This document shows, piece after piece, positions 35,111 through 47,783 of a stretch of 64,000 nucleotides of DNA. Source of the DNA: an uncultured Acidimicrobiaceae bacterium. GTDB taxonomy: Bacteria; Actinomycetota; Acidimicrobiia; Acidimicrobiales; SZUA-35. The notes below the pieces were generated by a model. It was not told the DNA's origin. It saw only the letters and a list, made by a program, of their open reading frames with translations, and did not search any database. The stretch covers positions 1 through 64,000 of the forward strand of contig CAMYLA010000010.1 in assembly GCA_947259095.1 (NCBI GenBank), given 5' to 3'. Made by a program: the position numbers and the translations under genes. The number at the start of each line of letters is the position of its first letter. Within the stretch, counting starts at the first letter, position 1.

Positions 35111-37228
35111 TTACGGGATGGTGCCGGTCGACTTGATGAACTCGACCGATTCGCTGAAGCCCACCATCGCCGTGCCCCGGGGTGTGCCGGACGCCAGCAG
35201 GCCGACCCAGTAGGCCAGGCCACCCGCATCCGGCTGGCGCTGGAGCACGTTGGTGTAGACCAGGTGGACGAACTGCTCGTTGCTGAGGGCGCCGTAGCGG
35301 GCCTGGAACTCCGGCGATCGGGCGAACTCGGTTGCGATCGCCTCCAGCGACACCCCGGCACCGGCCTGGCCGGCCCAGTAGGCCAACCCCTGCGCGTCGG
35401 GGGCTCGAAGGAAGAAGGCGGCGTACAGCCGGTTGATACGGGCCTCGTTCGAGCCGGTCGGGCTGGCCGTTCCGGTCCGGGTCACGTACTCGTCCGACTC
35501 GGCGAACCCGATCATGACCTCGCCCCTGGATCGTCCCCCGGAGAGCTGGCCGATCCAGTAGGCCCGACCCTCGGGGTCGGCCAGCCGGTTGAGCACGTTG
35601 GCGTAGACCAGGTCGACGAAGGCCTCGTTGCTCATCGACCCGTAGCGGTTCTGGAATTCGGCACTGGCGGCGAAGGCACTGGAGATGTCGACCAGGGACG
35701 TCCAGTGGGCCCGCTGATCGAGCCAGTAGCCGAAGCCGGATTCGTCGGCCAGCCGCAGGAAATAGGCCTGGTAGAGCCGGTTGATCTGGCCGTCGAGCGG
35801 CAGATCCCGGATGTAGCTCGGCCACTCCGACGGGTCGGCCGGCCCGCCGGACGACGGCAGCTGGACCGAGGAGGCAGACGCCGCACCGGCGCCGTTCTGG
35901 GCGATCGGGATGACCTTGATGGCATAGGACATGCCGGGGCTGAGGGAGTGGACCGTCGCCGTGGTCGCCGTGCCGGGGGCGGTCACGCTCGATTGCAGGG
36001 TCGTGCCGTCCCGCCACGCCTCGATGACGTAGCTGTCGGGGGCCAGCCCGGCCTGACCCAGATCCAATGACCATGACACCACCGCCGAGGTCAGTGACGG
36101 GCCCACCGATGTGATGGCCGGCGTGGCGGCGGGAACCGTGGTCGGCCAGCCGGTGCGGGCCATCACTCCCAGGACCGGGGCGTCCAGCACCCTGGCGGTC
36201 TCGCCGCCGCTCAACATCGGCGTCATCAGGGCGCCGGGCGATCCCGCCGGATAGGCCGATTCATCGAAGTGGGAGAAGCTGCTGCCCTGGCTCCACGATG
36301 ACGGGGCGAACAGTTCGTAGGTCAGCTCGGCGCTGATGTGGGTGTGGACGTCGGTCGACAGCAACGCCGCCGCCTTGTCCGGTGCCGAGACGATCGGGTT
36401 GCCGTTGTGGACTGCGGCGTTGTCGTAGGTGTACGGCGGTGAGTTCAGCGTCGGCGACGACTGGCCGGACGGGATCGTCGCCGATCCGAGGAACCCGAGG
36501 CCGTGGCCGATCTCGTGGAGCACCACGCTGTAGAGATCGATCTTGGCCCCCGGAGGGGTGCCGGTCGTCCCGAGGTACCAGCGGTTGGCGGCCAGCAGCT
36601 CGGCGTTGAGCACCACCTGGATCTCCGGCCGGCTCGGACCGTTGGCGTCGGTCCCGAGGAGGGTGTTGGCCAGCGCCGCCGGGTGCAGCGAGTTGCCTGG
36701 CAGGCCGCCGCCGTAGAACATCCCGTCCGGTCCGGCGTAGCCGAGCAGGGATGGGTTCCCGAGATTGGACCAGAAGACCTCGATCACGATCGGCCCGCCG
36801 GGGTTGGTCACCAGCACCGAATCCCATTGGTTCACCGCGGCGTCGACGACGGCCCTGACCGGGGTCGGGGCCGGGTACCCGGGGTTGTAGCTGGCGGCGA
36901 TGCCGCCGTAGGACGCGGCGTAGTTGTTCGGTGGCAGTCCGATCATCGACGCCTCGATGGCGGCCGAACGGATCTTCAGTTCCTCGACGTGGGCCTCCAT
37001 GTCCTCCTGGGCGTCCGGGGGGAGGAGACCGTCGGGGTCGGGGGCCAGCATCGGCGCCGGCTCGACCACGATCGGTGATGGCCCCTCGGTCAGGGGCGGG
37101 GCAGCCGATCCCGGTTCGGTGGCACCACCGATCCCGGCCGTGGCCACATCGGCCCCGGCCACACCAACCGGCCCGACCGCAATCAGGCACAGCACGAATA
37201 CGAACACCGCAACAGCTCTGTCTCTCAA
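35111..37228 (-). CDS. Secreted HExxH metalloprotease-like protein with Fn3 and DUF4214 domains
   Basis: A 705-residue exported protein. If started at TTG 37228, its N-terminus is a classic signal peptide (RDRAVAVFVFVLCLIAVGPV ... GVAGA); the frame extends to 37300 but then the signal would be buried. A zinc site LHEIGHGLGFLGS lies near residue 243; the HExxHxxG pattern suggests a metzincin-like protease. A fibronectin-III-like region (SVGPSLTSAVVSW ... GMSYAIKV) follows, then DUF4214 repeats (RLYQAYFLRLADESGFGYW, RLYAAFFLRAPDAQGLAYW, each with a VDLVYANVLNRL / VHLVYTNVLQRQ block). DUF4214 occurs in S-layer and adhesion proteins. Probably cell-surface. Confidence 0.82.
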   Translation of the reverse strand: MRDRAVAVFVFVLCLIAVGPVGVAGADVATAGIGGATEPGSAAPPLTEGPSPIVVEPAPMLAPDPDGLLPPDAQEDMEAHVEELKIRSAAIEASMIGLPPNNYAASYGGIAASYNPGYPAPTPVRAVVDAAVNQWDSVLVTNPGGPIVIEVFWSNLGNPSLLGYAGPDGMFYGGGLPGNSLHPAALANTLLGTDANGPSRPEIQVVLNAELLAANRWYLGTTGTPPGAKIDLYSVVLHEIGHGLGFLGSATIPSGQSSPTLNSPPYTYDNAAVHNGNPIVSAPDKAAALLSTDVHTHISAELTYELFAPSSWSQGSSFSHFDESAYPAGSPGALMTPMLSGGETARVLDAPVLGVMARTGWPTTVPAATPAITSVGPSLTSAVVSWSLDLGQAGLAPDSYVIEAWRDGTTLQSSVTAPGTATTATVHSLSPGMSYAIKVIPIAQNGAGAASASSVQLPSSGGPADPSEWPSYIRDLPLDGQINRLYQAYFLRLADESGFGYWLDQRAHWTSLVDISSAFAASAEFQNRYGSMSNEAFVDLVYANVLNRLADPEGRAYWIGQLSGGRSRGEVMIGFAESDEYVTRTGTASPTGSNEARINRLYAAFFLRAPDAQGLAYWAGQAGAGVSLEAIATEFARSPEFQARYGALSNEQFVHLVYTNVLQRQPDAGGLAYWVGLLASGTPRGTAMVGFSESVEFIKSTGTIP

Positions 37229-37300
37229 CCCCTGTCCTTCCCGTCCCGAGGTAGTGAGGTGATCGGCGCGGCCAGTGGTCCGCTGTAGTCCGGCTGCCAC

Positions 37301-40378: not shown

Positions 40379-41227
40379 TCAGCCTGCGGCGGCCTGGTCT
40401 GCGCCCGCTTCGCCGACCGGGGGCCCGGGACAAGGATTGACCTCGGGATCCGGCGAGCCTTCACCGGTTGCCCCCGGGGTCCAATCCGGGTTGGCGCAGG
40501 CCAGCAGCAGGTCGAGGTCGATCGGGGCCGAATCGCCGGCCTCGATGCCCTCCCGCATGTGTTCGATCCATTCCTGGTAGGCGGCCGAGCTTGTGTCCTC
40601 CTCGGACAGGATGGCCCGCTCGTGGTAGATCACCAGCTCCAGTTCGAGCTGGGTGAGGCTGGCCAGCTGGGACGGCATCGGCCCTCGTCCTCTGGCGCCG
40701 GACACCCGGGTGCCGTCATCACGAGGTGCGCCGTATTCCTCACCGAGGATTTCCACCGAGCCCCTGGCCACATGGGCCATCATGTCGATCGGTTCGGGGA
40801 ACGTGGCCAGAACCTCGCCGCCCGAGAGCTGGTAACCGACCCCGCCACCACCGTTGCCGCCATGGCAGCCGGCGCAGGAACCGTACAGTGCGGCCGCTTC
40901 GACGAGGAGCTCGTCCTCGGTGTCGGGCTGCTGCATCGTGCCGGCGAAACTGAAGGCCCAGATCGGCAGTGCGGCGATGATCGGCAGCACCCACACCGGG
41001 ATGCGCTTGCGGCTCTGGGCCGCAGCCACGTAGGCGGGGACGGGCTTCGGCGGCTCCGGCTCGGGATCGAGATTCGGGAGATCGGCGGCCGGGACCGCCG
41101 CCGGTGCTGCGGCCGTCTCGGCGGCCACCGGTGCCGATGTTGCCTCGGGCTCGGCGGGGGCGTCTCCGGACTTGCCGGACTTCGCCGCCTTGCTCCGCTT
41201 CAGTAGATGTTCCGGGATCTCGGTCAA
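40379..41227 (-). CDS. Membrane-anchored monohaem cytochrome c
   Basis: A 282-residue protein with a cytoplasmic Ala/Pro-rich N-terminus, one membrane helix (IPVWVLPIIAALPIWAFSFA) and a periplasm-side cytochrome c domain with CAGCH near residue 117 and Met ligands available (PMPSQL). The TTG at 41227 is chosen because GGAGGA precedes it and because it makes the protein begin TEIPEHLLKRSKAAK, the same motif that starts the cytochrome subunit-IV protein at 43488. It is divergent from the bc-type operon and probably delivers electrons to or from it. Confidence 0.85.
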   Translation of the reverse strand: MTEIPEHLLKRSKAAKSGKSGDAPAEPEATSAPVAAETAAAPAAVPAADLPNLDPEPEPPKPVPAYVAAAQSRKRIPVWVLPIIAALPIWAFSFAGTMQQPDTEDELLVEAAALYGSCAGCHGGNGGGGVGYQLSGGEVLATFPEPIDMMAHVARGSVEILGEEYGAPRDDGTRVSGARGRGPMPSQLASLTQLELELVIYHERAILSEEDTSSAAYQEWIEHMREGIEAGDSAPIDLDLLLACANPDWTPGATGEGSPDPEVNPCPGPPVGEAGADQAAAG

Positions 41228-41381
41228 CGGTCCTCCGGGAGCGTGATCGACCTTGTTGCTGTTTCTGGCGTTCTGGCCTGGATCCCATTCGTAACAGAGA
41301 ACCGTGCCGGGTGAAACACTATGCGGCGCAAAGGCTAGCGAGCCAGTCGAGGAGTGCGGTCGCTCGTCACGCGTTCTTCTT

Positions 41382-41435
41382 GCGACCCCCACCCGGGCCG
41401 GTCCGGCAACGCTGCGCCGGCCGTGGGGGGTTCGC
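41382..41435. other. Long imperfect stem-loop
   Basis: GCGACCCCCAC (41382-41392) can pair with GTGGGGGGTTCGC (41423-41435), with inner GGCCGG/CCGGCC arms and a 15-nt loop. No T tract on either side. It could be a leader structure of either divergent transcript. Confidence 0.5.
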
Positions 41436-41579
41436 CGACAAGCTGTTGGTGCAAGGGGAGCGGCGGGTTAAGGTCTGGGAGGCGTCTGCGCTACGGTTCG
41501 GTTCTTGGCCGTCCATGCCGACGGCTCGGGATGGATGTTCGGTTACGGTTGCGTCCTTCCTGAAAGCAACGACTACATT

Positions 41580-41595
41580 TGTGCACAGGTTCACA
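41580..41595. promoter_or_regulatory. Candidate CRP/GlxR-type operator
   Basis: TGTGCACAGGTTCACA fits the TGTGA-N6-TCACA palindrome with one mismatch. It lies about 139 nt before the first gene of the bc-type operon. Actinobacterial Crp/GlxR proteins are known to control respiratory operons, but the match is by eye only. Confidence 0.4.
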
Positions 41596-41733
41596 AGGTC
41601 TCCGAATCCGGCCACAGAGGTCGGCCCGGTATGCCGGCGGTTCACCACCGGTGGTCCACCGTGGAACCGACGTACTACAGTCCCAGCCCGGCCCGTTCCG
41701 GGTCCCGATCCAACCCGAGGAGCAAGCAAACCA

Positions 41734-42189
41734 GTGGCTGCCCTGTTGACATCGATCGTGGTTGCAGTGCTCATGTCGGTCGGTATTTTCGCCTACGCCA
41801 AACGCCGGCCCGTCGGTACCTCGGTCACGTGGGGTGAGGCGATGGTCGGTGCGGTCTATGTGTTTTTCCTCGGCTTCCTGGCCTACGGCGTCATTCCCCA
41901 CCAGTGGCTCACGCTGGCTGAGAACGAGTGGGGCTTCCGAGCCGACCGAATCGTCGTCGGACCGGGCGAGATCCTCAAGCCGATCTCCTTGGGAGGTTGG
42001 TTCCCGTTCGAGATCAGCTACCGGGCGATCTCCGACACCATCGCGGTGCTGTTCTACGTGGTCTTCCTCGGCGCCATGATCTGGATGTGGGCCCGGTGGC
42101 AGAACCGCGGTGTACGAGCAGACGCCAGGGAGAAGACCGCACTGGCCCAGACCAGCTCCTTCGGCAGGCCGCTGATCAAGCAGGGCTGA
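41734..42189 (+). CDS. Small membrane protein of the bc-type operon, unknown function
   Basis: A 151-residue protein with three hydrophobic segments (LLTSIVVAVLMSVGIFAYA; MVGAVYVFFLGFLAYGVIP; TIAVLFYVVFLGAMIWMWA) and conserved-looking middle VGPGEILKPISLGGWFPFEI. The GTG start at 41734 follows GAGGAG; upstream in-frame sequence is not hydrophobic and is not used. It is the first gene of the operon, 1 nt before the ferredoxin gene. I recognise no family; its context suggests an accessory or quinone-site subunit of the complex. Confidence 0.75.
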   Translation: MAALLTSIVVAVLMSVGIFAYAKRRPVGTSVTWGEAMVGAVYVFFLGFLAYGVIPHQWLTLAENEWGFRADRIVVGPGEILKPISLGGWFPFEISYRAISDTIAVLFYVVFLGAMIWMWARWQNRGVRADAREKTALAQTSSFGRPLIKQG

Positions 42190-42190
42190 C

Positions 42191-42607
42191 ATGACGACGA
42201 CCGACGCCAATCCACCGCTCCCGGAATTCCGGACCGACTACCTCCTGATGGAGGTCGACGCCGACTATCTGGCCAGGGCGGTCAAGCCGAAACAGTTCAT
42301 CCACATCGACCAGTCCGAGTGCATCGCCTGCGAAGGCTGTGTCGACATCTGCCCGTGGAAATGCATCCACATGCAGACCGTGGATTGTGTCGAGGAGAGC
42401 TACGGGATCGCAAAACCCGGCGACGATCCCAATGATGCCTTCATCTTCACCATCGACGACGACGTCTGCACCCGCTGTGCCCTCTGCGTCGACCGATGCC
42501 CCACCGGCGTGATAATCCTGGGCAAGATCGGCGAGCCGAGCCCGACCGGTGACATCCACCAGCGAATGACCTCCTACGGTTACGGGTACGGCATGCGCCT
42601 CGCCTAG
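42191..42607 (+). CDS. 2x[4Fe-4S] ferredoxin-like protein of the bc-type operon
   Basis: A 138-residue protein with two cluster motifs: CIACEGCVDICPWKC (about 45-59) and CTRCALCVDRCPTG (about 94-107), separated by an insert of about 35 residues. The N-terminal extension contains LLMEVDADYLARAV. It probably sits on the cytoplasmic face, between the small membrane protein and cytochrome b gene. A dedicated ferredoxin in a bc-type operon is unusual and could feed or drain electrons at the quinone level. Confidence 0.88.
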   Translation: MTTTDANPPLPEFRTDYLLMEVDADYLARAVKPKQFIHIDQSECIACEGCVDICPWKCIHMQTVDCVEESYGIAKPGDDPNDAFIFTIDDDVCTRCALCVDRCPTGVIILGKIGEPSPTGDIHQRMTSYGYGYGMRLA

Positions 42608-42683
42608 TGGGCGCACCCACCCGGGACACCGAAACACCCTTCCGAAATCGAACAACCGGCAAAATCAGGACAAGACCCCCTCC

Positions 42684-43475
42684 ATGGCAAAGTCGATTCA
42701 AGATCAACAAACGTTCGGCGAGAAGCTGCAGAACCAAATCAGTCAGCTGAACGGCAGCGTGCAGGGCTCCCAGGCCTGGAATTCGATATTCCGGCCCGGC
42801 TCGGTGTTTCGCAAGGGCTACACCGACAGCCCCCGCAACCGCTCCTACGTGATCATGAACAGTGTGCTCTATCACCTCCACCCGGTGAAGGTGAAGCGCC
42901 ATGCGGTGAAGGTCAGCTACACGCTGTGCCTCGGTGGTCTGAGCTTCTTCCTGTTCATCCTCCTGACGGTGACCGGCATCTTCCTGATGTTCTTCTACAC
43001 GCCGTCTGCGGCCCAGGCCTGGGATGACATCGAGGCCTTGCAGACCCAGATCGCCTTCGGTCTGCTGGTCAGGAACATGCACAGATGGGGGGCGCACCTG
43101 ATGGTGATCTCCGTCTTCCTCCACATGGCCAGGGTCTTCTACCATGGCGCCTACAAGGCACCTCGGGAGTTCAACTGGGTGATCGGCGTCATCCTCCTGA
43201 CGCTGACCCTGCTGTTGTCCTTCACCGGCTACCTACTCCCCTGGGACCAGCTGGCACTATGGGCGGTCACCGTTGGTACGAACATGATGGGCTTCACGCC
43301 GGTGTTCGGTACCCAGGTGAAGTTCGTCCTGCTCGGTGGCAGCGTGATCGGCACCAGTACGTTGCTCCGCTGGTACGTCTTACACGTACTTTTTGTTCCG
43401 TTTGTTACCGTCATCTTCATGGCCATCCACTTCTGGCGGGTCCGCAAAGACGGCGGCATCTCTGGTCCCCTCTAA
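42684..43475 (+). CDS. Cytochrome b6-like subunit (N-terminal cytochrome b)
   Basis: A 263-residue membrane protein with four helices and two haem-ligand pairs: His 133/147 (RNMHRWGAH ... FLHMARVF) and His 234/249 (VLHVLFVP ... MAIHFWRV). The 13- and 14-residue gaps between ligands are the b6-type pattern; in mitochondrial-type cytochrome b both gaps are 13. Length and the split from the next gene also fit a b6/subunit-IV architecture. The 50-residue N-terminal part before the first helix is longer than in plastid b6. No strong ribosome site is visible. Confidence 0.92.
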   Translation: MAKSIQDQQTFGEKLQNQISQLNGSVQGSQAWNSIFRPGSVFRKGYTDSPRNRSYVIMNSVLYHLHPVKVKRHAVKVSYTLCLGGLSFFLFILLTVTGIFLMFFYTPSAAQAWDDIEALQTQIAFGLLVRNMHRWGAHLMVISVFLHMARVFYHGAYKAPREFNWVIGVILLTLTLLLSFTGYLLPWDQLALWAVTVGTNMMGFTPVFGTQVKFVLLGGSVIGTSTLLRWYVLHVLFVPFVTVIFMAIHFWRVRKDGGISGPL

Positions 43476-43487
43476 GGATTTCCACTC

Positions 43488-44276
43488 ATGACTGAAATTC
43501 CGGAGCATCTCCGAAAGCGAGCCGCAGAGGCCCGCAAGAAGGCTGAAGGCGGCGGTGGAGCCGCCGATGCCGCACCGACCGAGAGCCCAGCCGCCGGCGG
43601 GGGTGCCAGTGCCGGTTCGGGGGCCGCCAGCAAGATCCCCGAACACCTGTTGCAGCGGTCGAAGTCGGCCAAGCAACGGGAAGGAGAGCAGGCTTCGGCA
43701 TCCACTGCGGTGGCCCCGGCGGCCGCCGCGGTTGCAACCGCAACCGCCCCGCAGCCGATGGCAACCATGACCGGCCCGGCCGGTCACACCCAGCGGCTTC
43801 TCACCGTGGTCAAGTCCGGCTCGATCCAGGACATCAAGGCCCAACCGCTCGACAAGGTCCACACCTGGCCCCACCTGATCGTGGTCGAGTTCGGTGCCGC
43901 CCTGGCGGTCACCGCATTCCTCACCTTCTTCTCGATCTTCGTCAACGCTCCGCTGCTGCGGCTGGCCGATGTGAACGCAACCCCCAACCCGTCGAAGGCC
44001 CCGTGGTACTTCCTCGGTCTGCAGGAGCTGTTGACGATGTTCCACCCGATGGTGGCGGGCGTCACCATCCCCGGCATCGGCCTCTTCGCCCTGATGCTGG
44101 CCCCCTACATCGACAAGAATCCCAGCAACAAGCCCGAGCGCCGCAAGTTCGCAGTGTCGCTCTTCACCCTCTTCATGATGTTCTGGGCGGTCCTTGTCAT
44201 CATCGGTTCGTTCTTCCGAGGTCCAGGGTTCAACTTCGTGTTCCCCTGGGTCGAGGGCATCTTCTTCGATCTCTAG
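43488..44276 (+). CDS. Cytochrome b/b6 subunit-IV-like protein with repeated IPEHL motif
   Basis: A 262-residue protein. The C-terminal half (about 110-262) has three helices and the quinone-site signature PSKAPWYFLGLQELL, a PEWY variant (here APWY), as in b6f subunit IV. The N-terminal 100 residues are a hydrophilic Ala/Gly-rich extension that begins MTEIPEHLRKRAAEARKK and contains a second copy, KIPEHLLQRSKSAK, near residue 50. The extension is not part of normal subunit IV and shares its motif with the cytochrome c at 40379-41227. Confidence 0.9.
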   Translation: MTEIPEHLRKRAAEARKKAEGGGGAADAAPTESPAAGGGASAGSGAASKIPEHLLQRSKSAKQREGEQASASTAVAPAAAAVATATAPQPMATMTGPAGHTQRLLTVVKSGSIQDIKAQPLDKVHTWPHLIVVEFGAALAVTAFLTFFSIFVNAPLLRLADVNATPNPSKAPWYFLGLQELLTMFHPMVAGVTIPGIGLFALMLAPYIDKNPSNKPERRKFAVSLFTLFMMFWAVLVIIGSFFRGPGFNFVFPWVEGIFFDL

Positions 44277-44407
44277 GAAACCCCAGTGATTGAGTTCTTC
44301 AACAAATCGTCAAGTATCCGGGGGGTTCGGCTTCCGTCCGAACCCACTGTGACCCGGAGATTTGCCGTGCGGCGCCTTGCGCCGAGCACTAGAACAGGAG
44401 CAAGCAC
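44277..44407. other. Intercistronic region with two hairpins
   Basis: A 131-nt gap in an otherwise tight operon. Hairpin 1: GGGTTCGG/CCGAACCC (44323-44345, 7-nt loop). Hairpin 2: CGGCGC/GCGCCG (44370-44384). AGGAG near 44396 serves the next gene. It may be a processing or partial termination site that sets subunit stoichiometry. Confidence 0.6.
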
Positions 44408-45283
44408 ATGATCGTGTTGATCGGTATCGCCATCATCGCTCTGCTGGCATTGATAGTTGTCGCAACGTCATTCCGGACGCGCGACACCCACACCGCCATC
44501 GGGCAGCTCTCGGGTGAAACCGTGAAGCGAGACCGTTCTCGGGTTGCGGCCGGGGTGAACGCCGAGGCCGAGGCCGACGCCGAACAGGAGACGGGGTCCG
44601 CCGTCGAGGCTGCGGCCCGGGCCGACCGCTCCGGTGAACTGGTCTCAGCAGGCGCCACCCCGCCCGTCGTCTACGTCCCGCCGGATCCCGAAACGCTTGG
44701 CGTCTCCCGCCGCCAGTTCCTGAACCGCGGCATCGTCGCCATGTTCGGCCTCGGCCTGGCGTCGTTCGGTGCTGCGGCCCTGGCCCAGCTGTGGCCGAGG
44801 CCGACCGAAGGCTTCGGCGCCAGGATCAACATCGGCAAGATCCCCGACATCAAGGATTCCATCACCGCCGGTGGCGGCTTCTTCTACTTCCCGGCCGGGC
44901 GCATGTGGCTCACCGACTACCCGGCCAATGCGTTGGCCAAGGCCCAGAGCACGTACAGCTTCTATCCCCAGGTTGCCCCCGGTCTCGAGAACGGCGTTGT
45001 GGCCCTGTTCCAGACCTGCCCCCACCTCGGCTGTCGGGTCCCCGATTGCCAGACATCCCAGTGGTTCGAGTGCCCCTGCCACGGTTCGCAGTACAACCAG
45101 GTCGGGGAGAAGAAGGGCGGCCCGGCCCCCCGGGGCATGGATCGGTTCCCGATGCAGGTGACCGCCGGCGGCGATCTCGTCGTCGACACGGGCAACGTGA
45201 TCCAGGGCCCGCCGATTGGTGTGAATACAACAGGACAGGAAGCTGAAGGTCCGAACTGCCTTGGAGCGGGTGGCGGTCACTGA
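44408..45283 (+). CDS. Rieske [2Fe-2S] protein
   Basis: A 291-residue Rieske subunit of the quinol:cytochrome c reductase. Cluster motifs TCPHLGCRVP and CPCHGSQYNQVG are complete, with both Cys/His pairs. The N-terminus has one membrane helix at once after the start, then an acidic linker, and a second hydrophobic stretch preceded by SRRQFLNRG (Tat-like), as in multi-helix actinobacterial Rieske proteins. Coupled by 1 nt (TGATG) to the dihaem cytochrome c gene. Confidence 0.93.
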   Translation: MIVLIGIAIIALLALIVVATSFRTRDTHTAIGQLSGETVKRDRSRVAAGVNAEAEADAEQETGSAVEAAARADRSGELVSAGATPPVVYVPPDPETLGVSRRQFLNRGIVAMFGLGLASFGAAALAQLWPRPTEGFGARINIGKIPDIKDSITAGGGFFYFPAGRMWLTDYPANALAKAQSTYSFYPQVAPGLENGVVALFQTCPHLGCRVPDCQTSQWFECPCHGSQYNQVGEKKGGPAPRGMDRFPMQVTAGGDLVVDTGNVIQGPPIGVNTTGQEAEGPNCLGAGGGH

Positions 45284-46869
45284 TGCTTGGCACATACATG
45301 TTGGCGGCCGATTTCAGAGCCATCGGCCTCACGGTCGCGGCGGTGGTTTTTCTTGGGTTTATCGCTGTCTTTATCCTCAATATGGTTCGGGCCAGGCCCG
45401 AGCTGGGCTCGGAGATCGAGCTGGCGGCCAACCGCAAGGAATACCTGCCGGACGAGGAACTCGAAGGTGAGAAACTCGATCGCTCGTTGAGCTTCGCCCT
45501 GGTGTTGCTCACGTTGCTGGCGATCACGCTGCCCTTCTACTGGATCGCAGAGCCCGGCCGGCAGGATGGTGCGGTCGACGCCTACAACCTGTCGTTCGAG
45601 GTTCGGGGCGAGGAGAGCTACCTCGTCGGCGCCCAGTGTGTGAACTGTCACGCCGCAGGCGGCGTCGGCGGTGTCGCCCCCTACGTGCTGCAGGACGCCG
45701 ACGGCCAGTTCATCGCCAACGCGGCGTGGGCCGCTCCGGCACTGAACAACGTCCTGCTCCGCTACAGCGAAGACGAGGTCCGCTATGTGCTGAACTTCGG
45801 TCGGCCCGGTTCGCCGATGGCGGCCTGGGGTACCCCCGGCGGTGGTCCGTTGACCTCCCAGCAGATCGACAACATCATCGTCTACCTGCGGACGCTCCAG
45901 AACCAGAGCCTCGACCCGCTCGACATCGCACTGGCAGGGACCGACAACGCACAGGACGAGGAGAGTCTGGCTGCCTTGGCCGATGCGCAGGAGGTCACGG
46001 CCAGCATCGAAGACGAGGTGGCGCGGTCGCTCGAGGCCGGAGAATACGACTCGGTCGGTGAGGCGGTGTTCAATCTGGGCCTGCAGAGCGGCTTCGGTGC
46101 CGGTGCCTACTCCTGTGGGCGCTGTCACACCGCCGGCTGGTCCTTGGGGATCGACATCGCACCCGACGTGCTGACCGAGGGTGTGGCCGGTTGCGGTGGC
46201 GGCAATCCTTCCGGCATCGGATTCAACCTCTGCGGAGGCTCGGTCAAGAACCGATTCCCCGATGACTCCTGGCTCCGGCCCGACGGCAGCTGGTACACGG
46301 TCGCCCAACTCGACACCGCCGGCGTGACCGAACCGATCGAAGGCAACCCTGCCGGCTACGACGGCAGCTACGTCGAGGCCATGGACGGCTCCCAGGTCAC
46401 CCTGGACGACAGCGGTCAGCCGGTCACCGGCGCCGGCGAGCCCTACCTGGTCCTCGGTCCTGGCGAAGGGCCGGGCGGCGAGGAGCAGGCCGGCGATCTG
46501 GCGTCATGCGGCTTCGTGTCCGGGTTGTGGGAGCCGTCGGCCGGCGGCCAGGCCTACCCGTTCGATCCGGCCATCGCAATCGAGCAGGATGACAGCGGCG
46601 ACTTCATCGATCCCGAGCCGATCACCTTGGCCGATGTCGGTGGCGACGCCCTCACCCTGGAGGACAACCGGATCGTGGCCGACTGCACGGTGGTCGAGAT
46701 GCCGCCTCGCACCAGCGTCGCCCACTACAACTTCATCTTCAACGGGGCCAATGCGGGTGAAGGCTACGGGGAAGGTGGCCTGAGCGCCGCCGGGATGATG
46801 CCCGGCTTCGGTCAGATGCTCCCTCCGGACTTGATCCAAGCGGTGGTCGACTACGAGCGGGGGCTGTGA
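45283..46869 (+). CDS. Dihaem cytochrome c of the bc-type complex
   Basis: A 528-residue protein with two membrane helices near the N-terminus (residues about 13-35 and 70-90) and two haem-binding sites, CVNCH near residue 119 and CGRCH near residue 278. A long C-terminal part without recognised motif follows, rich in Gly/Asp/Glu. Fits a membrane-bound cytochrome cc subunit, as in actinobacterial QcrC, but is larger and with atypical order. It overlaps the Rieske and the following gene by 1 nt each. Confidence 0.88.
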   Translation: MLGTYMLAADFRAIGLTVAAVVFLGFIAVFILNMVRARPELGSEIELAANRKEYLPDEELEGEKLDRSLSFALVLLTLLAITLPFYWIAEPGRQDGAVDAYNLSFEVRGEESYLVGAQCVNCHAAGGVGGVAPYVLQDADGQFIANAAWAAPALNNVLLRYSEDEVRYVLNFGRPGSPMAAWGTPGGGPLTSQQIDNIIVYLRTLQNQSLDPLDIALAGTDNAQDEESLAALADAQEVTASIEDEVARSLEAGEYDSVGEAVFNLGLQSGFGAGAYSCGRCHTAGWSLGIDIAPDVLTEGVAGCGGGNPSGIGFNLCGGSVKNRFPDDSWLRPDGSWYTVAQLDTAGVTEPIEGNPAGYDGSYVEAMDGSQVTLDDSGQPVTGAGEPYLVLGPGEGPGGEEQAGDLASCGFVSGLWEPSAGGQAYPFDPAIAIEQDDSGDFIDPEPITLADVGGDALTLEDNRIVADCTVVEMPPRTSVAHYNFIFNGANAGEGYGEGGLSAAGMMPGFGQMLPPDLIQAVVDYERGL

Positions 46870-47783
46870 TGCAAGCTGTGATCCACCAAATCGCATTCAT
46901 CGACGGCATCGGCTTCGATCCCTTCTTCCGTGGCCTGCTCAGCGTGCTCGTCGGCGTGGTGGTGCTGATTGGTGGCACCTATCTTTTGATCGCCACCAAC
47001 ACCGGCGCCCGATCGGGCATGCTCATCGCCTGCGCCGGTCTGTTCGGCTGGATGTTCCTGATGGGGATCATCTGGACCGTCTACGGCATCGGCTGGCGAG
47101 GCGACCGCCCCACTTGGGAACTGGTGGAGATCAACTTCGACGACGGGCCTGACCGTGATGACGGTCTGCTGTTCTCGGAGGTCGAGGAGGCCCAGGGGCT
47201 GGCCGGGGTCGACGTGTCGGTGGAGGCAGATGACCCGGACCAAGCCCAGGAGCTGGCGCTGGAAAAGGCATCCGAGACCGACCTCAACGGCTGGCGGTAC
47301 CTGCCGACGTCCGACAGTGAGCGGGGCGAGGCCCAGGCCTCGGCCGACGAGTATCTGGTCGAGGAGGGCGTCTTCGAGGCCGGGGATTACTTGCCGCTAC
47401 AGTTCGGCGGCTTCGTCACCGGTGGCAAGCCGGTGCTGGTCGAGGACGCCAACCAGCTGGAGCGGGTCTGGCATTTCTTCGACGAAACCTTCCTCCACCC
47501 CACCTTCAGTGAGGAGCTGATGGTCATCCAGGTCCAGGAGGTCGTTGCCGAACCGAGCTTCCCCGGCCAGCCTCCGCCGGTGGCCGAGGTCGATTCCGAG
47601 GCCGCCCTGGTATCGGTCATCATGGCCCGCGACCGGGGCGGTCCGATCCCCAGCATCATCGGCGGGCTGCGGTTCACCCCTCTCATGTTCACCTTGGCCA
47701 CCGGGCTGTTGTTCGCGGTGTTCGCCTGGGCCCTGCACGCCCGAGATCGGCGCCAGGACGAGATCCTGGCTGCAGCCGCCTGA
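46869..47783 (+). CDS. Membrane protein of the bc-type operon, unknown function
   Basis: A 304-residue protein with about two N-terminal helices (LLSVLVGVVVLIGGTYLLIA; MLIACAGLFGWMFLMGII), an acidic soluble segment of about 170 residues, and a C-terminal helix (LMFTLATGLLFAVFAWAL). The ATG at 46869 overlaps the previous stop (TGATG); a GTG one codon earlier is possible. It is the last gene before nuoA. No family recognised; the soluble part may interact with a neighbouring complex. Confidence 0.75.
   Translation: MQAVIHQIAFIDGIGFDPFFRGLLSVLVGVVVLIGGTYLLIATNTGARSGMLIACAGLFGWMFLMGIIWTVYGIGWRGDRPTWELVEINFDDGPDRDDGLLFSEVEEAQGLAGVDVSVEADDPDQAQELALEKASETDLNGWRYLPTSDSERGEAQASADEYLVEEGVFEAGDYLPLQFGGFVTGGKPVLVEDANQLERVWHFFDETFLHPTFSEELMVIQVQEVVAEPSFPGQPPPVAEVDSEAALVSVIMARDRGGPIPSIIGGLRFTPLMFTLATGLLFAVFAWALHARDRRQDEILAAAA

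Follow-up and report, generated by a model that had tools for sequence, protein, structure and literature searches.

An operon for a bc-type respiratory complex that carries its own ferredoxin raises the question of what this ferredoxin does there. Such an operon was found in the window, that is, the whole stretch of 64,000 nucleotides that was analysed from an uncultured Acidimicrobiaceae bacterium (contig CAMYLA010000010.1). As stated in a preliminary description of this DNA, the ferredoxin lies between a small membrane protein and the cytochrome b6-like gene, and a further membrane protein ends the operon (Table 1); the cysteine motifs, the b6 histidine spacing, the split cytochrome b, the Rieske protein and the dihaem cytochrome c are likewise all present. 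The tight overlaps described there apply to part of the operon: the small membrane protein and the ferredoxin genes are 1 bp apart, and the cytochrome c gene overlaps both the Rieske gene and the last gene, but gaps of 76 bp and 131 bp lie between ferredoxin and b6 and between subunit IV and Rieske, respectively.

Table 1. Positions in the window of the operon, its genes and the divergent neighbouring gene
Feature	Position	Strand	Remarks
Seven-gene operon (small membrane protein, ferredoxin, b6, subunit IV, Rieske, dihaem cytochrome c, second membrane protein)	41734-47783		
Single-haem c protein, divergent from operon	40379..41392	-	CAGCH; Pfam Cytochrom_C E 0.0039, below cut-off
Small membrane protein	41734..42189	+	GTG start 41734
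2x[4Fe-4S] dicluster ferredoxin	42191..42607	+	Pfam Fer4, E 4.6e-11
Cytochrome b6-type cytochrome b (b6)	42684..43475	+	Pfam PF00033, E 1.2e-45
Subunit IV-like protein	43488..44276	+	Pfam PF00032, E 5.7e-8
Rieske [2Fe-2S] protein	44408..45283	+	CPHLGC/CPCHGS; Pfam PF00355, E 1.3e-9
Membrane-anchored dihaem cytochrome c	45283..46869	+	Two CxxCH; Pfam Cytochrome_CBB3, E 5.4e-8
Last operon gene, membrane protein of unknown family	46866..47783	+	Pfam: no family at E<=1

Actinobacterial qcrCAB shares with this operon a respiratory role, a Rieske protein and a dihaem c protein. It differs in having one long QcrB, the order C-A-B and no known ferredoxin, whereas here cytochrome b is split and the order is b6-IV-Rieske-c. 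PF00033 and PF00032 match separate genes, both of which were found in 62/62 loci, and NF050120 reached 121.6 bits against a cut-off of 500, short of a single long QcrB. The qcr C-A-B order itself was seen in two ferredoxin-negative genomes (G014 and G059). With cytochrome b6f (PetB/PetD/PetC), the operon has in common the split into b6 and subunit IV, the b6 histidine spacing, an equivalent of Cys35 and the Rieske protein; it differs from b6f by its dihaem c, its own bacterial-type 2[4Fe-4S] ferredoxin and the two membrane proteins of unknown family. No cytochrome f family was recognised among the Pfam and NCBIfam matches of the window's eight proteins, and the dihaem c stands in its place. 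The b6 protein also scored 303.4 bits with the NCBIfam family ExtP (NF040969, b-type cytochrome of a selenite/tellurite operon; cut-off 290), which is probably over-broad here; ExtQ (NF040970) gave 50.1 bits and did not reach its cut-off of 150. A full-text search of the open-licence PMC literature, assessed by titles and the beginnings of abstracts, revealed no bc operon with such a ferredoxin.

The gene arrangement is more than chance, since its order is conserved both within the class and outside it. The ferredoxin adjoins b6 in 39/40 class loci, in 20/20 loci outside the class (order rechecked by domain position, some frames overlapping) and in all 79 testable named-contig loci from the best 80 of 515 relatives, the contigs of which are partly shared. 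At least 11 of these 80 loci apparently repeat earlier ones (L095/L073, L105/L078, L106/L077, L110/L076, L111/L080, L112/L091, L113/L090, L129/L087, L130/L086, L156/L069 and L167/L071), and the 140 loci in which conserved residues were counted are therefore not all distinct. Homologues of the ferredoxin and the small membrane protein are thus not mostly found away from cytochrome b genes, and this fixed adjacency supports the earlier assignment of the ferredoxin to the cytochrome complex. The best 80 relatives carry actinobacterial labels, save one Acidobacteria (L113) and four named just 'bacterium'. L113 is apparently the same as L090 (G207:C2), which is placed in Actinomycetota, and two others are labelled Bifidobacterium breve, probably misnamed. 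The operon's carriers form a large actinobacterial group, very probably made up of the Acidimicrobiia together with Nitriliruptoria and others. Two cultured members, Salsipaludibacter albus AS10 (L124) and Acidimicrobiaceae bacterium BS4 (L125), have it in their genomes. In this broad group the seven-gene bc operon nearly always includes its own ferredoxin.

The ferredoxin has the two CxxCxxCxxxCP motifs of a dicluster ferredoxin and a ninth cysteine; the eight cluster cysteines are kept in 140/140 loci (not all distinct). Its C-terminal tail, GYxYG(x)R, is kept in 28 aligned class sequences and missing from the outside-class rows of alignment A4. An AlphaFold2 single-chain model was of unusable quality (pLDDT 55.7), and one single-sequence query (L092) found no relatives in viral contigs. 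The ferredoxin profile matched at most 164 of 198 class genomes, an upper figure because six weak matches (E 1.6e-11 to 5.8e-14; G061, G096, G111, G116, G151 and G163) are probably other ferredoxins. A lone ferredoxin copy with no b6 beside it (L041), the sole such case among the loci looked at, and a locus with a frame break in the ferredoxin (L058) were left out of the profiles.

For the cytochrome b part, the best PDB match of the b6 family profile was cytochrome b6 (6rqf, 181 bits). The four haem histidines (133, 147, 234 and 249) are kept with b6 spacing in 139-140 of 140 loci, with one gap. Cys82 aligns with Cys35 of the 6rqf chain, the haem-ci position, and a cysteine is found there in 140/140 loci (not all distinct), from which we infer that b6 carries haem ci. 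Subunit IV has an N-terminal extension of about 120 residues with two IPEHL motifs. Its Glu134, conserved in 124/125 sequences with one gap, adjoins the position that pairs with subunit IV Phe40 in a weak match of 23 bits. A glutamate ligand gives haem cN a low potential, according to a study of anammox complexes (PMC12954380). The Rieske ligands are kept in 116/117 sequences, again with one gap, and homologous frames of the dihaem c have two CxxCH motifs in 53/58 cases and one in 5.

The small membrane protein, whose homologues in alignment A3 begin at the same start, has three predicted helices (2-24, 33-64 and 96-138; AlphaFold2, pLDDT 86) and a C-terminal tail S-x-[FY]-G-R-P. It had no match among PDB sequences at E<=1 and none in a fold search at E<=0.001, and neither it nor the last membrane protein reached a Pfam or NCBIfam cut-off. 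Both were proposed as subunits at the outset and probably are, as they are constant operon members: the small membrane protein is present in 62/62 b6 loci and the last protein, the size of which differs strongly between orders, in 58/62, with all four misses at contig edges. The divergent single-haem c protein has an N-terminal IPEHL motif, as in subunit IV, adjoins the small membrane protein in those of the 40 class loci that belong to the window's order, and is probably an accessory of the same system in that order.

Two kinds of related operon serve as a comparison. Three genomes of three families have the operon without the ferredoxin, with the small membrane protein and b6 retained. The ferredoxin is thus not needed for the core and seems to be an accessory that, though dedicated, can be dispensed with. 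The same three genomes also retain the haem-ci cysteine and the tail of the small membrane protein, and haem ci and the small membrane protein must therefore have ferredoxin-independent roles. In addition, the class has a second b6 cluster at seven loci (L173-L179), where the ferredoxin's place beside b6 is taken by a GltD-like NAD(P)/FAD protein with a dicluster ferredoxin domain at its end (domain scan on two of the seven). The haem-ci cysteine is missing from this NAD(P)-linked type in 7/7. The window's operon genes include no NAD(P)/FAD oxidoreductase subunit, and the b6 profile has one match in the window genome at E<=1e-10.

Rieske/cytochrome b complexes of the anammox bacterium Kuenenia (Kuste4569-4574 and Kustd1480-1485; PMC12954380) are alike in having a b6-like cytochrome b, a subunit IV-like protein, a Rieske protein and multihaem c proteins. 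Their models also place iron-sulphur clusters at the negative side, in a path that leads away from the membrane part (PMC12954380). They differ in that these clusters sit in an NAD(P) oxidoreductase and that six to eight haems are found in the c proteins (PMC12954380), whereas the window's operon has just a free-standing dicluster ferredoxin. L173-L179 look closer to the anammox type than the window's operon.

The search for an electron donor centred on TIGR03710, which we take to be the alpha subunit of 2-oxoacid:acceptor oxidoreductase ('KorA'). It was found in 174/198 class genomes at E<=1e-40, the window genome included. Of the 20 genomes listed as TIGR03710-negative, 15 contain the ferredoxin (some of them <90% complete), and TIGR03710 is present in all three ferredoxin-free b6 genomes. 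Because it does not track the ferredoxin, it was rejected as a marker and names no donor. Ten conserved neighbour clusters were tested, of which eight gave a family; these included genes of haem synthesis and of the assembly of cytochrome c, and no obvious ferredoxin-reducing enzyme. Distances of ferredoxin and b6 correlated with r 0.89 over 58 loci (L041, L058 and the ferredoxin-free loci left out), which is weak evidence, as the common history of related genomes alone would give it. A nuoB control yielded r 0.21 with the ferredoxin and 0.08 with b6, and is not a fair comparison with only 21 loci.

Entry of electrons at the quinone side, suggested from the beginning, is plausible, as b6 with its haem-ci cysteine adjoins a dedicated ferredoxin. 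The complex would be the respiratory complex III of the group and oxidise a quinol, presumably menaquinol, at the Qp site. The first electron would pass via Rieske to the dihaem c and the second via the two b haems in the direction of haem ci and Qn. The ferredoxin would bind at the cytoplasmic face, probably on a surface of b6, subunit IV and the small membrane protein. Soluble enzymes that reduce ferredoxin, or flavin enzymes, may then supply it with low-potential electrons, which would flow on through haem ci to menaquinone. To our knowledge, textbook respiratory chains have no such additional entry point for electrons from inside the cell. In favour count the adjacency of ferredoxin and b6, the eight cluster cysteines, Cys82 and Glu134, the NAD(P)/FAD-dicluster protein at the ferredoxin's place, and the single b6 match together with TIGR03710 in the window genome. 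Against it count the ferredoxin-free genomes, the failure of TIGR03710 to track the ferredoxin, the lack of an obvious ferredoxin-reducing enzyme among the eight neighbour clusters with a family and the cysteine missing throughout the NAD(P)-linked type. On balance, the chances appear about even for this reading, in which a b6f-like enzyme passes electrons from menaquinol to cytochrome c and takes in others from ferredoxin on the cytoplasmic side, close to haem ci and Qn.

Alternatively, the ferredoxin might be a structural, assembly or redox-sensing subunit on b6/subunit IV that assists in building or switching the complex, with no net transfer of electrons between the cytosol and quinone. 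Its constant membership and its conserved non-cluster segments, including the C-terminal tail, would fit; however, the eight invariant cluster ligands would be needless in a purely structural protein, the complex occurs without it in three genomes, and a redox enzyme takes its place in the sister cluster, which makes this reading unlikely. Flow might also run the other way, with quinol bifurcation sending one electron down the low-potential chain and from haem ci to the ferredoxin, which would thereby be reduced. This would be like the NAD(P)H generation proposed for the anammox complexes, for which the Rieske potential is decisive. The architecture of those complexes (PMC12954380), like that of the class's NAD(P)-linked b6 clusters, resembles the present one. 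Starting from a menaquinol pool, such flow would nevertheless have to go uphill and oppose the membrane field, and it is judged quite unlikely.

A ferredoxin that is merely co-transcribed and shuttles for another enzyme, for example in haem or cytochrome c maturation, is very unlikely: the haem synthesis genes and those for assembling cytochrome c are indeed conserved neighbours, but at varying distances, while the order small membrane protein-ferredoxin-b6 stays fixed within as well as beyond the class and, of the loci looked at, only L041 has the ferredoxin without an adjoining b6. Finally, a connection to the adjacent nuo complex had been put forward, by which the complex would dock on Nuo and the ferredoxin relay electrons between complexes I and III. 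nuoA is the 3' neighbour of the operon in the window, and 14/40 class loci have it downstream and co-oriented; yet in 8/40 it is divergent upstream, it does not appear within the stretch fetched for the remaining 18, and none of the 20 loci retrieved from outside the class showed it. This adjacency is thus lineage-specific and leaves the link unsupported, and docking on Nuo is extremely improbable.

Returning to the ferredoxin inlet, the role of haem ci and electron transfer from ferredoxin to b6f-type complexes at this haem are a long-standing question of photosynthesis, and ferredoxin-driven cyclic flow via haem ci is an old hypothesis for b6f. In the operon, a b6 of the haem-ci type and a ferredoxin of its own occur together in a respiratory context, and the ferredoxin-free and NAD(P)-linked relatives offer natural controls. 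Gene-by-gene annotation would give an ordinary bc complex and a stray ferredoxin and miss the link. It can tentatively be proposed that one complex III acts both as menaquinol:cytochrome c and as ferredoxin:menaquinone oxidoreductase, its bound ferredoxin delivering electrons from the cytosol by way of haem ci, and that the class also has a sister complex fed by NAD(P)H. If true, this would be a respiratory, non-photosynthetic counterpart of the ferredoxin-driven cyclic flow suspected for b6f. The operon also suggests how ferredoxin could be reoxidised in this large group, most of which is uncultured.

The gene set claimed in the preliminary description, namely a ferredoxin, a split cytochrome b, a Rieske protein, a dihaem cytochrome c, and two membrane proteins, was found on the plus strand, and nuoA starts about 100 bp past the last gene of the operon. 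The genome (6.4 Mb, 229 contigs, completeness 96%, contamination 7%) contains a single match to the b6 profile (E ≤ 1e-10), and therefore, within this profile search, the b6-type protein of the operon seems to be the sole complex III cytochrome b of the genome. The same protein exceeds the NCBIfam cut-off for ExtP, a cytochrome of selenite/tellurite operons (303.4 versus 290 bits), a label that is likely an over-annotation. Elsewhere in the window, a large protein encoded on the minus strand (35111-37300) carries one fibronectin III and three DUF4214 stretches, and its HEIGHGLGF stretch is metalloprotease-like.

Features of the operon and its surroundings in the window
Feature	Position	Strand	Family support
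Single-haem c protein, divergent from operon	40379-41392	-	
IPEHL(L)xR motif, N-terminal part of divergent c protein	41196-41221	-	
Small membrane protein	41734-42189	+	no Pfam/NCBIfam family at cut-off
Dicluster ferredoxin	42191-42607	+	Pfam and NCBIfam
b6-type cytochrome b	42684-43475	+	Pfam and NCBIfam
Subunit IV-like protein	43488-44276	+	Pfam and NCBIfam
IPEHL(L)xR motif, N-terminal part of subunit IV, first copy	43497-43519	+	
IPEHL(L)xR motif, N-terminal part of subunit IV, second copy	43635-43657	+	
Rieske protein	44408-45283	+	Pfam and NCBIfam
Dihaem cytochrome c	45283-46869	+	Pfam and NCBIfam
Last membrane protein	46866-47783	+	no Pfam/NCBIfam family at cut-off

Relatives of the ferredoxin were identified in 164 of 198 genomes of the class, very probably Acidimicrobiia (E ≤ 1e-10), including six weak matches that are probably other ferredoxins, and in 112 of 396 genomes of a phylum sample (E ≤ 1e-20). 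Gene order was surveyed, as the preliminary description had suggested, in loci that were our own selection within each search and not all matches. The b6 gene directly followed the ferredoxin in 39 of 40 class loci, and the order from the small membrane protein to the last membrane protein, confirmed by domain position, recurred in 20/20 loci from 12 families outside the class. Among the best 80 of 515 relatives in the titled collection, at least 11 of whose contigs, judging by their length, duplicate contigs counted earlier, b6 lay after the ferredoxin in 79/79 testable loci and the small membrane protein before it in 78/78; the taxa included Acidimicrobiaceae, Ilumatobacteraceae, Microthrixaceae, Nitriliruptoraceae, Euzebyaceae, and Egibacteraceae. 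The class Nitriliruptoria includes Nitriliruptoraceae as well as Salsipaludibacter. Because of these adjacency counts in all three sets, the ferredoxin homologues are not mostly located away from cytochrome b. The sole exception among the 40 (L041, 8974-9405) is a lone second ferredoxin copy in genome G107, with no operon around; it is 99.3% identical to the first over 433 bp, covers just the gene, and is either a recent copy or an assembly artefact. In another locus (L058, 8751-9162), the ferredoxin frame is broken in its second half by assembly error or decay.

When class loci, the 20 outside loci, and three ferredoxin-free loci were pooled, 56 of 62 b6 loci showed the complete order; three of the remaining six lie at contig edges and three lack the ferredoxin. 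The small membrane protein was present in 62/62 and the last membrane protein in 58/62, the misses being contig-edge loci. Structure prediction gave three helices for the small membrane protein with good confidence, and this model matched no known fold. In some class loci outside the window's order (L049-L054), the last membrane protein is shortened to about 105-127 residues, with the middle domain lost and the helices kept. Across the entire genome, a loose DNA pattern for the IPEHL(L)xR motif hit the three tabulated sites and two others, against none for the reversed control, and the motif occurred in 31/62 subunit IV frames of other loci. It is possibly a shared cytoplasmic-side docking motif of subunit IV and the c protein.

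The cofactor residues are strongly conserved. Cys82 of b6 aligns in a PDB alignment with Cys35 of cytochrome b6, the covalent ligand of haem ci (cn). A cysteine at this position was found in 140/140 loci of a partly redundant set, the haem histidines in 139 to 140 of 140 with one gap, and the eight cluster cysteines of the ferredoxin in 140/140 sequences (a ninth in 139/140). Glu134 of subunit IV, kept in 124/125 with one gap, adjoins the residue aligned with Phe40 of the 1q90 subunit IV, a weak match of 23 bits, and may be the glutamate ligand of haem cN. According to PMC12954380, a glutamate ligand confers a low potential on this haem.

The ferredoxin is not always retained. In the window's order, 17 of 18 listed ferredoxin-negative genomes yielded no cytochrome b matches other than low-scoring ones of canonical appearance, whose best E values ranged from 4e-29 to 5e-39; in two of these genomes (G059 and G014) the locus has the c-Rieske-b order of qcrCAB. 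Three genomes from three families (G114, G018, and G036) encode a high-scoring b6 with the small membrane protein directly in front; gaps of 66, 90, and 186 bp between matched parts are too short for the ferredoxin, and no strong ferredoxin match was found elsewhere in these genomes. L180 and L182 keep all six other operon genes, whereas L181, at a contig end, shows only the small membrane protein, b6, and a portion of subunit IV. All three keep the haem-ci cysteine and the tail of the small membrane protein. From these three operons, we infer that the complex can exist without the ferredoxin, all three genomes being multi-contig assemblies in which assembly error is possible. The loci represent natural ferredoxin-free operons and possible controls.

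A connection of the ferredoxin to the adjacent nuo complex, also proposed in the preliminary description, found no support: nuoA was downstream in the same direction in 14/40 class loci, divergent upstream in 8/40, not seen within the fetched stretch in 18/40, and not found in the 20 fetched loci outside the class. The adjacency is a local trait. TIGR03710, a 2-oxoacid:acceptor oxidoreductase family, was sought as candidate electron donor and occurred in 174/198 class genomes (E ≤ 1e-40), including that of the window and all three genomes with a ferredoxin-free b6; the ferredoxin was present in 15 of 20 listed TIGR03710-negative genomes. Ten conserved neighbour clusters were tested, and the eight assigned a family (FAD_binding_3 oxidoreductase, two of haem synthesis, three of cytochrome c assembly, an ABC transporter, and a thioredoxin-like family) included no obvious ferredoxin-reducing enzyme.

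A second b6 type, found within the class at seven loci (L173-L179), scored 288 to 308 bits, compared with 484 to 497 in the main type, and had the haem-ci cysteine in 0/7. Directly before b6 lies an open frame, 595 to 753 codons long, for a protein that has GltD-like NAD(P)/FAD domains and ends in a dicluster ferredoxin domain (two of the seven proteins scanned with NCBIfam and one with Pfam, the other five judged from translations); subunit IV, Rieske, and c protein follow downstream. Further clusters of the class (L176 4261-7264, L184, L185, L186, and L187) contain lower-scoring b6-like types, some within a longer frame. In PMC12954380, the anammox complexes Kuste4569-4574 and Kustd1480-1485 are modelled with an NAD(P) oxidoreductase arm whose iron-sulphur clusters lead to the membrane part, and the second b6 type resembles them in its architecture. 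By position and domain type, this parallel suggests that the ferredoxin of the main complex would stand where an arm of this kind has its last iron-sulphur module.

In the Q cycle established for this family, quinol is oxidised at the Qp site, one electron passing to the Rieske and c proteins and the other over two b haems to Qn. The ferredoxin would add a cytoplasmic inlet: a soluble low-potential donor would reduce it, and it would hand the electrons on to haem ci and menaquinone. This direction of flow would be expected because ferredoxins are usually more negative than menaquinone.
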